A DNA stretch of 10,351 bases from Clostridium sp. CAG:575 (GTDB lineage: Bacteria; Bacillota; Clostridia; TANB77; CAG-508): NCBI GenBank assembly GCA_000435535.1, contig FR884533.1, forward strand, positions 17,344 through 27,694, written 5' to 3'. Below are positions 452 to 8,937 of the stretch, piece after piece. The notes under the pieces are model-generated. The model did not search any database and had not been told where the DNA came from. It was given only the letters and a program-made list of their open reading frames with translations. The stretch's first letter is position 1. Each line of letters starts with the position of its first letter. Made by a program: the position numbers and the translations under genes.

Positions 452-1384
452 TTGAACAAGTACAAAAAAATAGCATATGCATTTTTAATAATAATTATTA
501 TAGCTTCAGGATTTATAATTTATAAAGTTTCAGGAAAAGATGGAGATATCAATATAAAAGAAAAAGCTGATGCGGAAATACAGTATATAGATGGAAAATT
601 AGTAAATTTATTTAATGAATTAAATAATATAAAATTTGATGGATATACAATTTCTGCCACAAATATTTCAGAAAACGATACATCTACTCAAAGCTCCGAA
701 CAGAATTCTAGTTCCTCGAGTTCATCAGGAAGTTCTTCAGAAGGAGATTCTAAAGACAAATCAGCAGGAAACTCTGGTTCTGGTGGAAGTTCTGAAAATG
801 AAGGAAGTAGTGAAAAACAAAACAATAAACAATATACATTAGAAGGAACAGGAGTATTGAATAAAAAAGAAGAAATAAATTGGGAAGAAATAAAAAAAGA
901 AGTAGAAAATGCATATCCTTCACTATCATCAATGACCTTAGACTTATATAAAACAGATGCAAAACATCAAGAAATTTTAGACTTCAATAAAGAATACGAC
1001 AATTTAATAAAAGCTGTTAAAGAAGAAAACAAAGAAGATACATTAGCCGAATTAGCTAAATTATATGACTATATTCCAAAATTTAAAGAAGCATGTAGCA
1101 ATGAAAGTAGCCAAATAATTATTGCAAATACTAAAAATTATTTATTTAAGGCATATAGTATTTTAGATAAAGAAGACTGGGCAACAATTGCAAGTAATAT
1201 AAATCATTCTACACAAGAATTTACAAAATTAGTTACTAATGTAGAAAACAAAAATAATAAACAATATAATATCAACAAAGCATATATTATGATAAATGAA
1301 ATGCAAAATTCAGTTACACTTCAAGATAAAGAAGTTTTTTTAATAAAATATAAAAATTTACTGGAAGAATTAGAAAATATATGA
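452..1384 (+). CDS. Membrane-anchored protein with Ser/Gly-rich linker and helical C-terminal domain, unknown function
   Basis: The 310-residue product starts at a TTG (452-454). GGAGGG (441-446) lies 5 bases upstream, and there is no in-frame ATG before residue 161, so the TTG start is well supported. Residues 1-6 are basic and residues 7-25 form one hydrophobic segment without a lipobox Cys, consistent with an N-terminal anchor and an extracytoplasmic body. Residues 30-70 form a short first domain. Residues 72-126 are a Ser/Gly/Asn/Glu low-complexity linker including seven consecutive Ser (86-92). Residues 135-310 are predicted mostly helical and rich in Lys and Glu, with scattered Trp (144, 243). 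No catalytic motif is recognisable. The gene ends in TGA directly against the rnpB promoter. It could be a cell-envelope or stalk-like protein; that is inference from architecture only. Confidence 0.85.
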   Translation: MNKYKKIAYAFLIIIIIASGFIIYKVSGKDGDINIKEKADAEIQYIDGKLVNLFNELNNIKFDGYTISATNISENDTSTQSSEQNSSSSSSSGSSSEGDSKDKSAGNSGSGGSSENEGSSEKQNNKQYTLEGTGVLNKKEEINWEEIKKEVENAYPSLSSMTLDLYKTDAKHQEILDFNKEYDNLIKAVKEENKEDTLAELAKLYDYIPKFKEACSNESSQIIIANTKNYLFKAYSILDKEDWATIASNINHSTQEFTKLVTNVENKNNKQYNINKAYIMINEMQNSVTLQDKEVFLIKYKNLLEELENI

Positions 1385-1390
1385 TATAAT
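1382..1390 (+). promoter_or_regulatory. rnpB promoter, extended -10 (TGA-TATAAT) using the upstream stop codon
   Basis: TATAAT at 1385-1390 is preceded by TGA, which is the stop codon of the upstream gene and at the same time supplies a TGn extended -10 element. Counting about 6-7 bases downstream places the transcription start at about 1396-1398, exactly where the P1 helix of RNase P RNA begins. No good -35 box is visible at the matching distance (the bases near 1362-1367 read TGGAAG), as is common for extended -10 promoters. Confidence 0.65.
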
Positions 1391-1395
1391 CTAAA

Positions 1396-1746
1396 AATAG
1401 AGTAAATTGAATAGTCGCTGGTAGCTTCCGAAAGGAACTACGAGAGGAAAGTCCGGGCTCCATAGAGCAAAGATGCTAGATAACGTCTAGTAGGGGCAAC
1501 CCTAAGGAAAGTGCAACAGAAAATAACCGCCTATTTTAGGTAAGGATGAAAAGGTGAGGTAAGAGCTCACCGCCTTTATGGTGACATAGAGGGCTGTGTA
1601 AACCCCATCTGGAGCAACACCTTGTAAAGAAGATTAAACCTGCTCGGTGCCTTCTTGATTTGCGTGGCTTGAAATATATAGTGATATATATTCTAGATAA
1701 ATGACTATTTTAAAAGACAGAACCCGGCTTACAGATTTACTCTATT
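1396..1746 (+). ncRNA. rnpB: RNase P RNA, bacterial class A
   Basis: This is the catalytic RNA of ribonuclease P, which removes 5' leaders from pre-tRNAs together with the RnpA protein. The universally conserved core is visible: GAGGAAAGTCCGGGCTCC at 1444-1461, GTGCAACAGAAA near 1511-1522 followed by ACCGCC, the helix GGTGAGGTAAGAGCTCACC near 1553-1571, and the 3' P4 strand ACAGAACCCGGCTTA at 1717-1731. The order and spacing match the class A (E. coli-like) fold rather than the class B fold of Bacillus. The ends are set by a perfect 12-bp P1 pairing of 1396-1407 with 1735-1746. The helix around 1674-1694 is an A/T-rich ATATATA stem. A T-rich stretch follows P1, but I see no separate hairpin terminator before the convergent rluA. 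Confidence 0.97.
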
Positions 1747-1763
1747 ATTTTATCTTTATAAAA

Positions 1764-2636
1764 TTAAAAATCAAAAATTTTAAAATCAGATGGTAAATCA
1801 CCAAAAAAATCCAAACTACATTTAGTAACAGGATGAACAAAATGCAATTTATAACAATGCAAAGCCTGTCTATCAATAAAATCAGAAATAGTCCCATATA
1901 AACTATCACCAATTAATGGATGACCAATTGCAGCCATATGAACCCTAATTTGATGAGTTCTACCAGTTTCTAGAGTGCAATTAACTAAAGAATAGTTATT
2001 AAATTCTTTCAAAACCTTATAATGAGTAATAGATTTTTGACCATTTTCAGAAATACATCTTTCAATAATGCTATTTTCTTTTCTTGCAATAGGCAAATCA
2101 ATAATACCATGCTTTTTGTCAAAAATACCATTACAAATAGCTAAATATTCTTTTTTAAAAGTATTTGCTTGCATTTGCTTGATTAAACATTCTTGAATAT
2201 ATTCACATTTGGCAAATAAAACTAAACCAGAAGTGTTACGGTCTAATCTATTAACTGGACGAATTTTTTTATGCAGATTAATAGTATTAAAATAAGATTT
2301 TATACCATTAGAAAGAGAATCATCATAATGTAAAATAGAAGGATGAACTGCAATACCAGCAGGTTTATTAACTATTATCATCCAATCATCTTCATATATA
2401 ATATCAAGAGGCGTTTTTGTTGCAACTATATTAGAATTATCTTCTTGCATTGATAAGTCAACAGTTATAATATCTCCAATATTTGGCGAAATTCTAGTAT
2501 CACATTTAGTATTATTTAATAAAATTTTATTATTTTTAATCAATCTATTTAACAAAATAGAAGATATATCAAATTCTGTTTTTAATATTTGGTTTATAGT
2601 CATTGTATCACTTTTTACAGTATATTTTAATTCCAT
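1764..2636 (-). CDS. RluA-family ribosomal large-subunit pseudouridine synthase
   Basis: The 290-residue protein is the usual length for RluC/RluD-type enzymes, which isomerise specific uridines in 23S rRNA to pseudouridine. Residues 12-62 resemble an S4 RNA-binding domain (ILLNRLIKNNKILLNN). The catalytic domain begins near residue 78 with IIYEDDWMIIVNKPAGIAVH. The catalytic motif reads RPVNRLDRNTSGLVLFAK (126-143), with Asp132 as the expected nucleophile. The conserved RTHQIRVHMAAIGHPLIGD follows at 226-244. The usual His before RLD is Asn here. AGGAG (2643-2647) upstream of the ATG supports the start. The gene converges on rnpB, 17 bases from the RNA end. Family assignment is firm; the exact rRNA target (RluC-like, RluD-like or other) cannot be read from sequence alone. 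Confidence 0.93.
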   Translation of the reverse strand: MELKYTVKSDTMTINQILKTEFDISSILLNRLIKNNKILLNNTKCDTRISPNIGDIITVDLSMQEDNSNIVATKTPLDIIYEDDWMIIVNKPAGIAVHPSILHYDDSLSNGIKSYFNTINLHKKIRPVNRLDRNTSGLVLFAKCEYIQECLIKQMQANTFKKEYLAICNGIFDKKHGIIDLPIARKENSIIERCISENGQKSITHYKVLKEFNNYSLVNCTLETGRTHQIRVHMAAIGHPLIGDSLYGTISDFIDRQALHCYKLHFVHPVTKCSLDFFGDLPSDFKIFDF

Positions 2637-2721
2637 TCTAAATCTCCTAAAACTACTAAGGACAATAAATCTCCAAAAGACATCTACATCCTAATTATAT
2701 ATTTTTGTCGAAATGCAATTT

Positions 2722-2750
2722 ATTTTACCATTTATAATAAAAAAACACAA
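2722..2750 (-). promoter_or_regulatory. Candidate rluA promoter
   Basis: Read on the minus strand, TTGTGT (2745-2750) and TAAAAT (2722-2727) are 17 bases apart. The spacer ends in TGG, giving an extended -10 TGn. The predicted transcript leaves a leader of about 80 bases before the rluA start. It lies back-to-back with the trmB promoter, the two -35 boxes being only 8 bases apart. Confidence 0.45.
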
Positions 2751-2758
2751 ATATTTCC

Positions 2759-2787
2759 TTTACAATTTTTAAAATTATGTATATAAT
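2759..2787 (+). promoter_or_regulatory. Sigma-A-type promoter of trmB
   Basis: TTTACA (2759-2764) and a perfect TATAAT (2782-2787) are separated by 17 bases, the optimal spacing. The start would fall near 2794, leaving a leader of roughly 64 bases before the trmB ATG. I see no riboswitch-like or terminator-like structure in that leader. Confidence 0.65.
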
Positions 2788-2857
2788 CACATTAGAATTA
2801 TAATTGATTCAAAAATATAAATAAAATGTTAATATACCAATATAGGAAGGAAACATA

Positions 2858-3520
2858 ATGAGAATAAGATACAAAAAATGGGCAAGACCAGAATTAGAAG
2901 CAAGTGAATTTTACATAGATAATCCAGAAGAATATAAGGGAAAATGGAAAGAAACATTTAACAACAAAGAAAATCCGATTCATTTAGAATTAGGATGTGG
3001 AAAAGGACAATTTATATCACAATTAGCATCAAATAATTTAGATAAAAATTATATAGCAATCGATTTAGTAGATGCAATGTTGGGATTAGCAAAAAGAAAT
3101 GTAGAGCAAGTATATTTAGAAAAAAATATGAAACCAGAAAACGTAAAGCTTACAAGATATGATATAGAAAGAATATTAAATATTTTTGAAGAAAAAGATG
3201 AAATAGAAAGAATATATATAAATTTTTGTAATCCATGGCCAAAAGGAAAACATAGAAAAAAGAGATTGACACATACAAGACAGCTAGAAAAATACAAACA
3301 ATTTTTAGTGCCAAATGGAGAAATTTATTTTAAAACAGATGATGACGACTTATTTAATTCAAGTTTAATATATTTTGAAGAAAGTGGTTTTGAAATTTTA
3401 AATAAAACATATGATTTACACAATGAACCAATATTTGAACATAATATAGAAACAGAACATGAGAAAATGTTTTCTGAACAGGGAATAAAAATAAAAGCAT
3501 TAATTGCAAAGAAAATATAA
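2858..3520 (+). CDS. trmB: tRNA (guanine-46-N7)-methyltransferase TrmB
   Basis: TrmB uses S-adenosylmethionine to methylate N7 of G46 in the tRNA variable loop. The 220-residue length is typical. The Rossmann SAM-binding glycine motif is [12 protein letters not shown] at 42-53, and the acidic strand end is IAIDL at 66-70. The family hallmark is [19 protein letters not shown] at 121-139, corresponding to the PWPK-x-(R/K)H-x-(K/R)RL signature. [13 protein letters not shown] (154-166) and the C-terminal [18 protein letters not shown] (199-216) complete the substrate-binding set. The start is supported by AGGAAGG (2844-2850) 7 bases upstream. It heads a rightward run of genes with its own promoter. 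Its neighbours rnpB and rluA are also RNA maturation or modification genes, which may be only coincidental clustering. Confidence 0.97.
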
Positions 3521-3629
3521 ATAAAACAAAATAGAAGAGATAAGGTTGAAAAATAATTACAATTTTGGCTGTGTCAAATTTAAATTTTTCCAACTTGGCT
3601 TGTGTCTTAGGAAAGGAATAAGATTAAAA

Positions 3630-4151
3630 ATGGAAGCACCAGATGTAATAGAAATGAGAAAAAATTGCAATAATAGAGAATATGTTATAAAGGCAGTAGC
3701 TGAAAAAGGAAAACTTCTTGAATTTGCTGCACCAGAATTTCATGATGATGAAGAAATTGTAAAAGCAGCAATAACTCAGGATGGAGAAGCAATGGAATTC
3801 GTTAGTGATAGACTAAGAGATAATAAAGAACTAATGATGCTAGCAATAGAAAAAGCTCCTTGGACAGCATGTTATGCTTCAGAAAGATTAAAAGCAGATA
3901 GAGATATAATTATGGCAAGTGTTAAAACATATGGACAAACTCTATATTATGCAAGTGAAAATCTAAGAGATGATTATGATGTCGTAAAAATGGCAATACT
4001 AAATAAAGGACTAATAATAAAATATGCAAGTTTACGTTTAAGAAATAATAAAGAATTGGCGGAAATAGCAGTAAAACAAGATAAAAGAGCATATCATTTT
4101 TTAAGTCAAGAGTTAAAGAATGATGAAGAAATAAAAGCTCTTATACAATAG
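3630..4151 (+). CDS. DUF4116-type repeat protein with six exact 25-residue repeats
   Basis: I place the start at ATG 3630 (AGGAAAGGA at 3609-3617 upstream), giving 173 residues. The frame is open back to a TTG at 3546, but the added residues (FGCVKFKFFQLG and so on) do not resemble the repeats and the TTG has only a poor ribosome binding site. After a 15-residue lead (MEAPDVIEMRKNCNN) come six units of exactly 25 residues: 16-40, 41-65, 66-90, 91-115, 116-140 and 141-165, then a short partial unit. The consensus is roughly (K/R)E-hydrophobic pair, A-hydrophobic, then YASxxLRxD. This matches the DUF4116 helical repeat, a family of unknown function. It is probably a soluble alpha-solenoid binding module. 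It follows trmB by 109 bases without a clear promoter or terminator, so co-transcription is possible. Confidence 0.85.
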   Translation: MEAPDVIEMRKNCNNREYVIKAVAEKGKLLEFAAPEFHDDEEIVKAAITQDGEAMEFVSDRLRDNKELMMLAIEKAPWTACYASERLKADRDIIMASVKTYGQTLYYASENLRDDYDVVKMAILNKGLIIKYASLRLRNNKELAEIAVKQDKRAYHFLSQELKNDEEIKALIQ

Positions 4152-4265
4152 AAAAAAAGTTATATTATAAAAATTAAGAAAACCATAGCTGAAGATTAAA
4201 TTACCCATTAGTAAATTTATTAAAAAGCTAAGTTGTTTCTGTATAATAAAAAGGAGGATTTTAAA

Positions 4266-5411
4266 ATGATAAAAAAAGTTGCAATATTAGCAAATGGAGG
4301 AGATGTAGCAGGATTTAATGCTGTAATTAGAGGAATAGTAAAAACAGCAGAAAATAATGGAATAGAATGCTATGGATTTATAGATGGATATAATGGTCTA
4401 TTAAGAAATGAATATGAAAAATTAAGTACAGCAGAAGATGGAAATGCTGAAGGAATTTTACCAAAAGGTGGTTCAATAATAGGATCTTCAACAAATGCAA
4501 ATGTTTTTAATTATAAAGTAGTAGATGAAAATGGAAATATAGAATACAAAGATTTGTCAGATGTTTGTGTTCAAAATATTAAAGATGATGGATTTGATTG
4601 CTTATTTACTTTAGGAGGAGATGGAACACAGAAATCAGCAAGAGATTTTGCGGTAAAAGGAGTAAATGTTATAGGAGTTCCAAAAACAATAGATAATGAT
4701 GTTGCTTGTACAGAGATAACATTTGGATATAATACAGCAGTATCAGTTGCTATGGAAGCAATAGATAGACTTCATACAACAGGAGAAACTCATCATAGAA
4801 TAATGGTATTAGAAGTTATGGGAAGATATGCTGGGTGGATTGCTCTAGAATCAGCAATTGCAGGAGGAGCTGATGTAGCATTAATTCCAGAAATACCATA
4901 TGACATAAATAGAGTTGCAGAAAAAATTAAAAATAGAAAAAAAAGAGGTAAAAATTTTAGTGTTGTAGTTGTTGCAGAAGGTGCAAAACCAAAGGGCGGA
5001 GAAATAACAGTACAAAACACAAGAGATAATGGCAAAGGCGTTGACAATACAAAACTTGGAGGAGTAGGAGAAATAGTTGCAAAACAATTACAAGAATTAA
5101 CAGGTTTAGAAGCAAGAAACACAACTTTAGGATATATGCAAAGAGGTGGTACACCAACAGCATTTGACAGAGTTTTATCAACTAAATATGGAACAGCAGC
5201 AATGAGACTTGCAATAGAAGAAAAATTCGGAAATTTAGTTGTTATAAAAAATGGTAAAATAGATTATGCATCATTAGAAGATGTAGTAGGAAATAACAAA
5301 GAAATAGGAGCTGTATCAGGAAACACAACAGAAAGCAATCAAAGACATGTTACAATGGATGATGATTTAGTAAAAACAGCCAGAAGTGTAGGAATTAATT
5401 TAGGAGATTAA
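4266..5411 (+). CDS. 6-phosphofructokinase (PfkA superfamily), atypical active-site residues
   Basis: The enzyme phosphorylates fructose 6-phosphate to fructose 1,6-bisphosphate in glycolysis. I chose ATG 4266 because AAGGAGG (4251-4257) sits 8 bases upstream; a TTG at 4233 is in frame but lies before that ribosome binding site. The protein is 381 residues, longer than the about 320 of E. coli PfkA. Seen motifs: NGGDVAGFNAVIRG (10-23), GGDGT (117-121), PKTIDND (139-145, catalytic Asp143), LEVMGRYAGW (182-191), PEIPYD (208-213) and QRGGTPTAFDR (292-302). Gly120 at the position of E. coli Gly104 favours ATP, whereas Lys140 at the Gly124 position is typical of the PPi-type and mixed group. The usual Arg after the GGxxxGSS loop is absent (GSSTNAN at 73-79). 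So phosphofructokinase is firm but the phosphoryl donor is uncertain. The next gene follows after 27 bases. Confidence 0.93.
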   Translation: MIKKVAILANGGDVAGFNAVIRGIVKTAENNGIECYGFIDGYNGLLRNEYEKLSTAEDGNAEGILPKGGSIIGSSTNANVFNYKVVDENGNIEYKDLSDVCVQNIKDDGFDCLFTLGGDGTQKSARDFAVKGVNVIGVPKTIDNDVACTEITFGYNTAVSVAMEAIDRLHTTGETHHRIMVLEVMGRYAGWIALESAIAGGADVALIPEIPYDINRVAEKIKNRKKRGKNFSVVVVAEGAKPKGGEITVQNTRDNGKGVDNTKLGGVGEIVAKQLQELTGLEARNTTLGYMQRGGTPTAFDRVLSTKYGTAAMRLAIEEKFGNLVVIKNGKIDYASLEDVVGNNKEIGAVSGNTTESNQRHVTMDDDLVKTARSVGINLGD

Positions 5412-5438
5412 AAATATTAGAATACGAAGGAGAATATC

Positions 5439-6101
5439 ATGTTAAAAGAAAAATTAAAAAATAAAAAGAGGATAATTATTATAGTATTTATTTTTATAAT
5501 TTTGGTTATAGCAGGAATAATAATTGTAAATAACAATAAAAAAACAAATGAAACTGAAAGAACAAATCAAATTTATGCAGAAATTGTGCAATCAGATGAA
5601 ATAACTTTTAAAAGAATATTAGATAATGATAATGAAATAACAATTGCTAAAAGTGGAACAAGAGGATATAAAGAAGAGAAGATTAACGGGAAAATAAAAA
5701 AATATATAGTAATAGATGGTAACACATATTATTTGGATGAAAATAACAAAACATATTACGTTTATGATAATAATGATTCTATTTTAACTGAGATAGAAGA
5801 AATATTAGATTCTTTGGAAACTTCTCATAGAGAAAAAAATATAGGAAAAGAAATAATTAATTGGAAGAGCTATGATTACGAAGAATTTTCTTCATTTCAA
5901 GATTTTTTAGTTGATACAAATAGAGCACTAAAAAATGAAAGTAAAGCTAAAACAAGATTTTATTATGATAACAATAAATTGGTTTATATAAAAACAATAT
6001 TAGATAATGAAGAAGAATTGGTAAAAGCTGAGATTTCTCATAATAAAATAGATGATAGTTACTTTAAAATACCTTCAGATTATGTAAATGGGGAAGAATA
6101 A
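5439..6101 (+). CDS. Small single-pass membrane-anchored protein, unknown function
   Basis: The 220-residue product starts at ATG 5439 with AAGGAG (5427-5432) 6 bases upstream. Residues 1-11 are highly basic and 12-31 are an uninterrupted Ile/Val/Phe membrane segment with no lipobox Cys, so an N-in, C-out anchor is expected. The body (40-220) alternates charged turns with short strands (ITIAKSG, KYIVIDGNTYYLDE, TYYVYDN) and ends in SYFKIPSDYVNG. This late strand pattern is loosely like LolA-fold periplasmic and lipoprotein-carrier domains, but the resemblance is too weak for an assignment. It begins 27 bases after pfk and is probably co-transcribed with it. It precedes the Wzz/BY-kinase-like gene by 58 bases, and both products reach the cell surface side of the membrane. 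No catalytic motif is seen. Confidence 0.85.
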   Translation: MLKEKLKNKKRIIIIVFIFIILVIAGIIIVNNNKKTNETERTNQIYAEIVQSDEITFKRILDNDNEITIAKSGTRGYKEEKINGKIKKYIVIDGNTYYLDENNKTYYVYDNNDSILTEIEEILDSLETSHREKNIGKEIINWKSYDYEEFSSFQDFLVDTNRALKNESKAKTRFYYDNNKLVYIKTILDNEEELVKAEISHNKIDDSYFKIPSDYVNGEE

Positions 6102-6105
6102 ATTT

Positions 6106-6146
6106 TATTATTATAATATAAGTCTGAAATATATTTTATAATAATA
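6106..6146. repeat. A/T-only imperfect inverted repeat between the two membrane-protein genes
   Basis: TATTATTATAATATA (6106-6120) can pair with TATATTTTATAATAATA (6130-6146) with a 2-base bulge, around the loop AGTCTGAAA. It could modulate transcription or mRNA stability between the 220-residue gene and the downstream 925-residue gene. The stem is entirely A-T and has no following T-run, so I do not call it a terminator. Confidence 0.25.
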
Positions 6147-6159
6147 TATAGGTGATCAT

Positions 6160-8937
6160 ATGGAAATAGAAGAAAATATAGATATTAGGCGTTTTATAGA
6201 TATCATTTTTTCAAAAAAGAAAATATTAGTATTTATTATAATTGTTAGTATGGCAATAGGATATGTCTATTCTTATCATTTAAAACAAGATATATATAAA
6301 TCTTCAGAAACAATATTGCTAGCACAAAATGAAAAAGATGATATGCAAATAACTCAAAATGATTTAAATGTTAATACAAATTTAATAACTACGTATAGCA
6401 ATATTGCCAGAAGTTATAATGTAGTAGAAACTACTATTAATAATTTAGGAATTCAAATACCAATAAGTGAAGTTCAAAATAATATTGTAGTAGAAGAAAA
6501 AAAGAATACACAAATTATAGAAATAACTATAAAAAATAAAAATCCAGAAGTTGCAATGAAATTGACTAAAGAGCTTACAAAAGTTTTTGCAGAACAGGTA
6601 AAAAATATTTATAACTTAGAAAATATTAATATTATAGATGAAGCAGAAATAGAAAGTTTTCCATGTAATACAAATCATGTTAAAGATATGTCAATATTTG
6701 TTATAATGGGATTAGGATTAATAGGAGTTTTAGTTCTTATTTTTTATATGTTTGATGATACCATCAAACAGGAAAGTGATGTTGTAAATTATACAGGACT
6801 ACAGGCTTTAGGAATAATTCCAATGGTAGAGAATAAAAAACAAAATTTAGAATTAATATCACATCTGAATCCTAAATCTTATATATCGGAAGCATTAAAA
6901 ACAGTAAGAACTAATATTTTATATACTACATCAATAAGCAAAAGAAAATCAATTTTAATAACGAGTCCAAAGCAAGAAGAAGGAAAAACCTGGATATCAA
7001 ATAACATAGCTGTTTCTTTTGCACAAGCAAAAAAGAAAACTATAATAGTTGATTGTAATCTGAGGAAGAAACAAGATATAGAAGAATTTAACATAAAAAA
7101 TGAAAAAGGATTATCAAGTTGCATAAATAAAATAACTAAAGACAAAATTGAAAATGTTGGAATTATAGGTCAATACATACAAGAAACACAAGTACCAAAC
7201 TTACATATTTTAATAAATGGGATAATTCCACCAAATCCATCTGAATTGATATCTTCTAATAATATGAAAAGATTAATAGCAACTTTGAAATATATGTATG
7301 ATATAGTTATTTTAGATTCTACACCTTGCCTAGAGGTTTCAGATAGTGTTGCTTTGTCTTCTATGGTAGATAACACAATTTTAGTAGTAGAAAGTAAAAA
7401 AACAAAAATAAATGAAGTTAAAAGAGCAAAAAAATCAATAGAAGATGTAGATGGAAAAATTGCAGGTGTTATTGTTAATAAAAAGAAGTTTAGTAAAAGT
7501 GGATATTATGGAAAAAATTATGGATATGGATATTACTATGGACATACCAGTGAAAACAATATTAATATAAAAGAAGAACAAAAAGGATTCACTGTTGAAG
7601 AAATTATTGAACAAGCAAAGGCAAATATAAAACAAGAAGAAAAACAAAATAAAAATAGAACAATAAAAAAAGAACAAAACACAAAAGGCCAAAAAGCAGA
7701 AGTTAGAGTAATAAAATTAATAAAAAGATTATTTGAAAAAGTTTTAAAGATTCAAAAAAATGTTGATTTAAATTATATAGAACAAGAAAATAGAGAAAAG
7801 AATAATAAGCAAAAACAAGAAAATATAAATAATAATATTTTAAGTCAATTAAAAGATTTAAGAACAGAACAAGAAAAACAAAAAAACCAAAACAATGATA
7901 TTATACAACAAATTGCAAAAATAAAAGAGGATAGAGAGACAAAAGAAAAAAATATTTCAAATAAAATAAATCAGTTAAGAGAAGAAAGAAAAGTCAAAGA
8001 AGGAAATATCTTAAATCAAATTGATGGATTAAGGAAAGAACAGAAAAAAAATAAAAATGACGTTCTAAATAAAATAAAAAATTTAGATGATGATAACAAA
8101 AATATAAATTCTAAAATTTTAAATTATAAAAAAGAAAATAAAAATTCTAATATAACAAATGATGTAGAAAATATATCAACTTTGATAAGTGAATTGATTG
8201 AGAAACATAACCATATAGAAGAAAATATAAATTATTTAAAAGAGCAAAGAAAAGTTGTTATTGGAGACATTAATACATTAAAAGATAAAAATGAATATAT
8301 TTTAGATAGTATTACAGGACTAAAAACAGAAAAGAGCAATGTATTAGAAATAGTACGTTATTTAAAAGAAGACCAAAAATATATTGTTAGTGATATGGAT
8401 AACCTAAAAACAGAAAAAGCACAAATATTTAAAGCAATTGAACAACTAAAAATAGACAATAGGAAATTATTAGAGCAAAATGAAGATACAGAAGAAATAA
8501 AAAAGTTGCAAATTACTAATAAAAAAATGGCTATAAGAGTAAAAAAATTAACACAAACATTACAAAATTTAGAAGATAAAATTGCTAGTTTACAAGAATT
8601 AAATGATAGAATGACAAATACAGAAGATAATATATCACAAGCAAGGTTAATGCAAAGTATGCAAATTAGTAACATAAATAAACAATTGGAAGAATTAAGA
8701 AAAGCACAAGAATCTAATCCAGAAGAAAAAATAAAAATGCCTATTGAAGAAAAAGAGAAAAAACAAGAAAATGACAATATTATTAGCATTAATACTTTAA
8801 GAAAGAAAAACAAAAAAGCAAAAAAAGTATTTTCAATTAAAGATGATATTATGTATGATGATTTAGAAAATGCTTCTGAAATCATTTTAGATTTAAAAAA
8901 GGAAGCTAAAATAGATACTAAAATAATTAATAACTAA
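6160..8937 (+). CDS. Wzz/BY-kinase-like membrane protein fused to a long cytoplasmic coiled coil
   Basis: A 925-residue protein with AGGTGATC (6150-6157) before its ATG. Order: Wzz-type domain with membrane segments near 21-38 and 177-197 bracketing an external loop; then a bacterial tyrosine kinase (BY-kinase) ATPase domain, about 225-445. Seen signatures: SEALKTVRTNI (243-253), Walker A TSPKQEEGKTW (268-278), Walker A' IIVDCNLRKK (295-304), PPNPSELI (357-364), Walker B DIVILDSTPC (381-390), and a tyrosine cluster at 449-460 (seven Tyr in twelve residues). BY-kinases usually end just after this cluster. Here another 460 residues follow: a basic amphipathic stretch (512-534), 18-residue repeats (581-652), 14-residue repeats (686-769), more coiled coil to about 850, and a tail 890-925. 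Classical members control capsule or exopolysaccharide chain length, but no such genes are nearby and the nucleotide motifs deviate. Kinase activity is therefore uncertain; a scaffold role is inference. Confidence 0.85.
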   Translation: MEIEENIDIRRFIDIIFSKKKILVFIIIVSMAIGYVYSYHLKQDIYKSSETILLAQNEKDDMQITQNDLNVNTNLITTYSNIARSYNVVETTINNLGIQIPISEVQNNIVVEEKKNTQIIEITIKNKNPEVAMKLTKELTKVFAEQVKNIYNLENINIIDEAEIESFPCNTNHVKDMSIFVIMGLGLIGVLVLIFYMFDDTIKQESDVVNYTGLQALGIIPMVENKKQNLELISHLNPKSYISEALKTVRTNILYTTSISKRKSILITSPKQEEGKTWISNNIAVSFAQAKKKTIIVDCNLRKKQDIEEFNIKNEKGLSSCINKITKDKIENVGIIGQYIQETQVPNLHILINGIIPPNPSELISSNNMKRLIATLKYMYDIVILDSTPCLEVSDSVALSSMVDNTILVVESKKTKINEVKRAKKSIEDVDGKIAGVIVNKKKFSKSGYYGKNYGYGYYYGHTSENNINIKEEQKGFTVEEIIEQAKANIKQEEKQNKNRTIKKEQNTKGQKAEVRVIKLIKRLFEKVLKIQKNVDLNYIEQENREKNNKQKQENINNNILSQLKDLRTEQEKQKNQNNDIIQQIAKIKEDRETKEKNISNKINQLREERKVKEGNILNQIDGLRKEQKKNKNDVLNKIKNLDDDNKNINSKILNYKKENKNSNITNDVENISTLISELIEKHNHIEENINYLKEQRKVVIGDINTLKDKNEYILDSITGLKTEKSNVLEIVRYLKEDQKYIVSDMDNLKTEKAQIFKAIEQLKIDNRKLLEQNEDTEEIKKLQITNKKMAIRVKKLTQTLQNLEDKIASLQELNDRMTNTEDNISQARLMQSMQISNINKQLEELRKAQESNPEEKIKMPIEEKEKKQENDNIISINTLRKKNKKAKKVFSIKDDIMYDDLENASEIILDLKKEAKIDTKIINN
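7900..8115 (+). repeat. In-gene 54-bp (18-residue) coiled-coil repeats
   Basis: Residues 581-598, 599-616, 617-634 and 635-652 of the 925-residue protein are four contiguous 18-residue units. Each has the pattern hydrophobic-hydrophobic-x-x-I-x-x-(L/I)-(R/K/D)-(K/E/D)-(E/D), then a charged tail. A related 21-residue unit precedes them (560-580). The DNA copies have diverged more than the protein pattern, so this is an old, selected repeat rather than a recent expansion. Confidence 0.8.
8215..8466 (+). repeat. In-gene 42-bp (14-residue, two-heptad) coiled-coil repeats
   Basis: Residues 686-699, 700-713, 714-727, 728-741, 742-755 and 756-769 are six exact 14-residue units with no insertion. 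Each has hydrophobic residues at its start and an invariant LK at unit positions 8-9 (for example ILDSITGLKTEKSN). Fourteen residues are two heptads, consistent with a continuous left-handed coiled coil. Confidence 0.85.

Follow-up and report, generated by a model that had tools for sequence, protein, structure and literature searches.

A stretch of 10,351 nucleotides from Clostridium sp. CAG:575 (contig FR884533.1, positions 17,344 to 27,694; hereafter the window) encodes a bacterial tyrosine kinase (BY-kinase) whose tyrosine cluster is internal and is followed by 464 further residues, made up of a long rod and a conserved C-terminal tip. This architecture is real, conserved, and uncommon. 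The reading we favor, at a probability of roughly 55%, is that the rod protein is a membrane-anchored tether that arose from a polysaccharide co-polymerase/BY-kinase paralogue and whose tip would dock on a cytosolic partner. According to the usual model of BY-kinases, a free end rich in tyrosines threads into the active site of a neighboring subunit and controls ring assembly; a rod-bearing family tests that model. The family also offers an example from nature of how the positioning of capsule-type machinery in the cell could work. It comes from uncultured gut bacteria and so shows a layout that studies of cultured models would miss, and its tip, at about 40 residues, is short enough for direct use as bait.

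Domain architecture of the rod protein

The open reading frame (ORF) is intact, begins with ATG, and encodes 925 residues, ordered along the chain as a Wzz-like membrane domain, a BY-kinase domain, the tyrosine cluster, the rod, and the tip. The initial annotation had read a Wzz region, a BY-kinase, an internal tyrosine cluster, and a long extension from the letters alone, and profile searches bear this out: Wzz (PF02706) matches residues 5 to 96 with 43 bits against a cutoff of 25.5, the Pfam family AAA_31 matches residues 263 to 431, and the BY-kinase model TIGR01007 matches residues 244 to 455 with 164.9 bits against a curated cutoff of 108.05. TIGR01006 matches with 125.8 bits, under its own cutoff of 296. 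In an AlphaFold2 model of modest confidence (mean predicted local distance difference test score [pLDDT] of 62.0), predicted membrane helices at residues 21 to 41 and 173 to 198 would flank about 130 extracellular residues. The best sequence relatives with solved structures are CapA-CapB chimeras and Wzc; a profile built from relatives (alignment A1) and searched against the sequences of solved structures matched CapA1B1 (4jlv) at an expectation value (E) of 1.4e-56. Foldseek, applied to the predicted fold, ranked Wzc chains first and gave CapAB (3bfv) a target-normalized template modeling score of 0.83.

The cluster holds seven tyrosines (residues 449, 450, 454, 456, 458, 459, and 460). In canonical BY-kinases, the cluster is described as lying at the C-terminal end (PMC3795738, PMC4574921); because 464 residues follow it here, we regard the protein as a BY-kinase variant and not as a canonical member. 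An assembly accident or chance is ruled out, because 35 contigs in the protein database carry the identical protein and relatives keep the extension: it is present, at 281 to 559 residues, in 118 of the 120 homologues listed (of 1,307; counts include the window's own protein). Nor is the rod already known from BY-kinases with solved structures, as the full-length ones (Wzc, with chains of 720 to 738 residues) stop 3 to 17 residues after the matched kinase stretch.

Conserved ends and a variable middle

Used alone as a query, the extension retrieves 31 proteins at an E of ≤1e-6, including that of the window, all with the same architecture; the rod is thus recognizable among close kin only. The final 50 or so residues of the extension are not coiled coil and form its best-conserved portion. 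The tip within them follows the motif K-K-x-[FY]-x-[IT]-x-[ED]-x-I-x-[YSF]-x-[DE]-L-E..., and across 21 aligned relatives its fuller pattern is NIISFxSLKxxRKxxKKxFxIxExIxYxDLExxSxCxIDL. It lies 0 to 6 residues from the C terminus in every listed protein that has it (118 of 118), and the two listed homologues without it end inside the rod. Among nine representatives, mean pairwise identity is 58% in the Wzz region, 62% in the kinase, 88% in the tyrosine block, 29% in the rod, and 54% in the tip, with gaps in 36% of the rod's alignment columns. The initial annotation noted a distinct tail and overlooked this motif, although it is the best argument for the spacer that the annotation proposed.

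The rod itself had been described as mostly coiled coil with two different repeat blocks. A coiled coil agrees with three AlphaFold2 helices of modest confidence (residues 512 to 654, 665 to 772, and 779 to 851) and with hydrophobic periodicity near 3.5, which appears in all eight overlapping 70-residue segments spanning residues 526 to 840 (P ≤ 0.033; 300 shuffles per segment, uncorrected for multiple testing) and in none of the remaining 17 (P ≥ 0.163). Calculated over the whole rod at once, the periodicity signal is 9.9, below the maximum of 100 shuffles (10.3), as expected if the register breaks. Both repeat blocks are visible and weak: the first, at lag 18, scores 0.28 and barely exceeds its shuffle maximum of 0.27, and the second recurs at lags of 42, 28, and 14 (0.24 at lag 42 versus 0.20 for shuffles). 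DNA tandem repeats at positions 7622 to 7695 lie just ahead of the first block. The protein P0021, 98% identical over aligned columns, has 96 additional residues at residue 661 of the window's protein, between the two blocks. The 1,021-residue form carries 96 residues at this joint, and other relatives have a similar stretch there, so the window's form is probably a shortened version.

Length varies even among proteins that are at least 95% identical over their first 430 residues. One such group of 43 near-identical proteins has lengths of 737, 755, 773, 791, and 809 residues, that is, steps of 18 residues, and the additional 18-residue units map to the rod. In other groups, 22 proteins have 845, 846, or 874 residues, six have 825 or 843, and seven have 944 (six proteins) or 974 (one protein); the window's own group of 20 consists of 19 proteins of 925 residues and one of 1,021. 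The kind of spacer also changes. At locus L088 (a frame of 1,154 residues), repeats of 14 residues stand in place of the coiled coil (lag-14 identity of 0.40 versus a shuffle maximum of 0.15), and the heptad signal is scant over most of this spacer, yet the tip still stands at the end. The AlphaFold2 model of this protein has short helices in the spacer, at a mean pLDDT of 43.6 a hint at most. The spacer varies in kind and length and the ends do not.

The outer part of the protein can be lost as well. Four loci (L004, L089, L145, and L097) are without the extracellular domain and keep the kinase-like domain, rod, and tip. Judged by eye, L004 has two membrane helices joined by a short loop, and L089 and L145, which are alike and possibly stem from one event, have a single helix. 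L097 (positions 9426 to 10964) has no Wzz match, no P-loop, and no tyrosine cluster; it still shows a helical tail and a weak match to the tip (E of 1.5e-6) and may be either a pure tether or a gene in decay. If the extracellular part is dispensable in this way, with kinase-like domain, rod, and tip retained, then chain-length control cannot be the function that these proteins share.

Active-site motifs

The term "ATPase-like" in the initial annotation draws on motifs, and one of these is altered. The BY-kinase Walker A' consensus is given as DxDxR (PMC8517177), from which DCNLR in the window departs. Among the 120 listed homologues, this motif is DxN in 54, DxD in 61, and another form in 4, with 1 unscored; after removal of redundancy, DxN occurs in 25 of 59 rod proteins (the window's included) versus 1 of 42 other kinases, and this sole exception is a truncated rod protein. 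The second aspartate of DxD is, we take it, the residue D564 of Wzc. Because DxN replaces DxD, the kinase activity of the rod protein may be altered, with no loss of activity implied. In work on Wzc, D564 of the neighboring active site serves as the yardstick for a docked tyrosine (PMC11986026). A BY pseudokinase of the EcpK/HfsB type is not supported, since the GKT, the Walker B aspartate, and seven tyrosines are present, although the DxN of some family members may mean reduced activity.

Distribution

Two overlapping genome samples, of 292 around G003 and 287 around G001, were searched with a profile of the tip. At an E of ≤1e-5, the tip was found in 12 genomes of each (21 distinct genomes, 22 loci); 20 of the 22 loci have a BY-kinase match as well (in some cases in broken frames), the other two run off the contig end, and the tip was seen on no other kind of protein among them. 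Matches weaker than this threshold, among them L107 and L108, were set aside; the two inspected, L066 and L067, lie on unrelated ORFs. Across 299 genomes of the phylum, a BY-kinase is detected at an E of 1e-20 in 128, and just 2 of the 147 listed matches lie in frames of more than 560 residues (judged by frame length alone), namely, the G003 rod protein and a tailless, Wzc-like frame of 710 residues. Within the same bacterial group, other long tails with different ends occur (L027, L029, L028, L034, L039, L040, and L094), and many split kinases have tails of 45 to 129 residues, so that tails after the tyrosine cluster are habitual in the group, and what belongs to the rod-protein family is the conserved tip.

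Some of these tailed proteins form sets of their own. L027 and L029 (994 and 1,037 residues) and L039, L040, and L094 (1,056 residues, a 969-residue frame, and 793 residues) are two more sets of long-tailed Wzz/BY-kinases, and in L039 and L040 the tyrosine cluster is not at its usual place. Classical CpsD-type kinases of the group, including L017, L016, L030, L035, L045, and L050, have tails of about 90 to 130 residues behind the tyrosines. Several of these tails close with much the same short, helix-like pattern (ILNQINSYLxxEK), which may be another type of tip. Two tip-bearing genes share a contig at L096 (G256, contig 40), one of them reaching the contig end. At L090 (positions 588 to 7542), several Wzz/BY-kinase genes of one genome stand in a row, with the rod gene split over two overlapping frames and followed by an additional copy that evolves fast.

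A proposed tether and its alternatives

We read the rod protein as a tether because its ends are conserved, its middle is free and replaceable, and its extracellular domain can be lost with the rest kept. The membrane and kinase parts would be the anchor, assembling in the membrane (as an octamer, if they resemble Wzc and CapAB), and the spacer would hold the tip up to tens of nanometers away (340 helix residues at 0.15 nm give about 50 nm). The tip would act as a hook for a partner in the cytosol or at the division site, and the protein, together with whatever its membrane part binds, could thereby be placed or signaled to from a distance. Further grounds for this reading are that, at the threshold used, the tip was seen on no other kind of protein, that G003 has a separate capsule-type locus, and that there is a precedent in tagged CpsC. 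In pneumococcus, CpsD is reported to bind ParB (PMC4574921), CpsC is reported to depend on the divisome, and an artificial C-terminal tag that pulls CpsC to the pole re-routes capsule synthesis (PMC10233549); a division or chromosome protein is for these reasons a fair first guess for the partner. One study calls the route of CpsC and CpsD to the septum unclear (PMC10233549). The spacer or scaffold between envelope and cytosol suggested by the initial annotation is thus partly supported by the conserved ends, the replaceable spacer, and the loss of the outer domain.

A more elaborate version of the tether is possible, if doubtful. Membrane rings would show several rods whose tips jointly grip a cytosolic or division-site partner, and phosphorylation would break the ring, lower avidity, and release the partner; the spacer could be freely lengthened, shortened, or swapped, and lineages that discarded the outer domain would keep a pure tether. 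The gating step, in which tyrosine phosphorylation would drive ring assembly or disassembly, gather or release several tips, and so set the avidity of the tether, is the least supported.

Several points weigh against the tether. The docking partner is putative; the tip has no match among sequences in the PDB and is modeled by AlphaFold2 with low confidence, and it may instead bind the protein's own kinase domain. A CpsB_CapC phosphatase gene lies near the rod gene in 7 of 23 loci (compared with flanks of unequal length), directly adjoining it in L085, L086, L087, L088, and L090 and about 3 kb away in L141 and L142, and because cpsB is nearby, a role inside an ordinary CpsBCD phospho-circuit is as likely at those seven. 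No second BY-kinase was found in G002 and G004, which are draft metagenome assemblies, and the rod protein might for this reason be their only co-polymerase. A further point is descent: in a tree of 65 kinase domains, the rod proteins split into two groups, each with strong support, which join at 80/98 and enclose one long-branched neighbor. Once five long rows are removed, the best tree does not unite the rod proteins in a single clade (13% of bootstraps); between them falls L005, a kinase that has no rod and ends at its own tyrosine cluster. A single clade of all rod proteins was not rejected (approximately unbiased test, P = 0.459).

The protein could instead be an ordinary exopolysaccharide chain-length regulator of the CpsCD type, its tail merely adding stability or solubility. 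This is unlikely, even though membership in the Wzz/BY-kinase family, the four to seven tyrosines kept in the cluster of all 59 nonredundant rod proteins, and the cpsB neighbors speak for it. An inert tail would not be expected to end a nonconserved rod with a conserved tip, and the four loci without an extracellular domain fit such a regulator poorly. Neither CpsB nor another polysaccharide gene is present in the 10.4-kb window, and 15 other loci likewise have no CpsB within the DNA compared. Most cpsB-bearing loci have classical CpsC and CpsD genes adjoining cpsB, and the CpsDs of L085, L086, L087, and L088 end 2 to 5 residues after the matched kinase stretch. In G003, the rod gene stands alone at one site, and the capsule-type locus (CpsB, CpsC, CpsD, LytR-CpsA-Psr, UDP-galactopyranose mutase, and a flippase) is elsewhere.

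Alternatively, rod and tip might act within the protein, the rod setting the oligomer number (a dimer or trimer, not an octamer) and the tip folding back on the kinase as a regulator. Coiled-coil rods generally oligomerize; in the octamer-interface motif EX2RX2R, which reads E-A-L-K-T-V-R in the window, the first arginine is replaced by lysine (a conservative change) in 46 of 47 scored rod proteins versus 7 of 33 others, and the enrichment of DxN among rod proteins points the same way. We nonetheless consider this explanation quite improbable. Steps in length and replacement of the spacer would upset a fixed oligomer, more so than a fixed fold-back, and since most of the L088 spacer is not heptad coiled coil, a common oligomeric state set by the rod is unlikely. 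That the tail is functionless low-complexity sequence drifting neutrally in an A+T-rich genome is highly improbable and already disfavored: Lys, Glu, Asn, and Ile abound in the rod, which is highly variable and underlain by short DNA repeats, but its frame is preserved in relatives of 45 to 98% identity, its length changes by whole codons and repeats, and the tip is conserved.

Comparison with known systems

Like the Gram-positive pairs CpsC/CpsD and CapA/CapB (a class 2b polysaccharide co-polymerase plus a BY-kinase), the rod protein has two membrane helices around an extracellular domain, a P-loop kinase of the CapB fold, a tyrosine cluster, and, in some relatives, CpsB close by. Unlike them, it is a single chain with an internal cluster and 464 more residues holding rod and tip, and it has Asn for the second Walker A' Asp and Lys for the first Arg of EX2RX2R. 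It shares with Gram-negative Wzc, which gives the best Foldseek matches, a membrane domain and kinase on one chain, whereas the extra length of Wzc lies outside the cytosol and no rod follows its tyrosines. In Wzc, the tyrosine-rich peptide is described as the chain end, passing through the active site of a neighbor (PMC8285477), and for Wzc and CapAB alike this end is reported to reach the next subunit, with phosphorylation breaking the octamer (PMC8285477, PMC3795738). Because the rod sits behind the tyrosines, threading of a free end could not occur in the rod protein, and the strand would have to enter as a loop.

The pseudokinases EcpK and HfsB are described as using the BY-kinase fold as a scaffold through protein contacts (PMC12004946), which resembles the role suggested here; they are without Walker motifs and tyrosines, whereas the rod protein is altered only in Walker A'. 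CpsC of the POLAR system, which the rod protein may work like, has a C-terminal binding tag that decides the cell position of a co-polymerase (PMC10233549), but that tag is engineered, without a rod, and unrelated by descent. The coiled coils named for co-polymerases are placed in the periplasmic domain (PMC12220298). Searches of open-licence literature listed no title or abstract that describes a BY-kinase whose tyrosine cluster is followed by a cytosolic rod, which is weak evidence of absence.

Features of the window and neighboring genes

Table 1. Coordinates of the rod gene and its parts within the window
Feature	Residues	Positions	Strand	Basis
AGGTGAT, probable ribosome-binding site		6150..6156	+	Sequence; 3 bases between its end and the ATG
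Rod BY-kinase gene	925 in all	6160..8937	+	ORF; Pfam and TIGR01007 profile matches
Wzz/CpsC-like membrane domain	1-222	6160..6825	+	PF02706; sub-cutoff TIGR01006; AlphaFold2 helices
BY-kinase domain	223-448	6826..7503	+	TIGR01007; CapA1B1 4jlv; CapAB 3bfv
Walker A, TSPKQEEGKT, GKT kept (EGKT 274-277)	268-277	6961..6990	+	CapB alignment
Walker A', TIIVDCNLR region, second Asp of DxD is Asn	295-302	7042..7065	+	CapB alignment
Walker B, VILDSTP, Asp is D386	383-389	7306..7326	+	Alignments with relatives and CapB
Tyrosine cluster, internal	449-460	7504..7539	+	Sequence
Post-cluster conserved patch, QKGFTVEEIIEQAKANI	474-490	7579..7629	+	Alignment A1
Rod, stretch of heptad-like periodicity	526-840	7735..8679	+	Periodicity test; AlphaFold2 helices
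Rod block 1, 18-residue periodicity	561-660	7840..8139	+	Lag test, borderline
Rod block 2, 14/28/42-residue periodicity	661-790	8140..8529	+	Lag test
Conserved C-terminal motif, candidate docking tip	873-912	8776..8895	+	Alignment A2

The window also contains RNase P RNA and genes for a pseudouridine synthase, a methyltransferase, a DUF4116 protein, a phosphofructokinase, a small membrane protein, and an iron alcohol dehydrogenase. A single-helix membrane protein without a Pfam match above cutoff is encoded at positions 5439 to 6101, 58 bases upstream of the rod gene; it is not an obvious partner, because relatives of it (33 to 36% identity in genomes such as G126 and G049) occur where no rod gene was listed, for example, in G126, G049, and G110. 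A link to Tad pili was likewise dropped as evidence: at L003, L004, and L085, genes no more than about 12 kb from the rod gene look by eye like those for CpaB, CpaE, CpaF, and TadB, but among those tested Pfam produced a single match, to T2SSE, and the CpaB candidates matched nothing. Positions 452 to 1384, immediately ahead of the RNase P RNA (positions 1399 to 1747), encode a membrane-anchored protein with a low-complexity stretch rich in Ser, Gly, and Asn.

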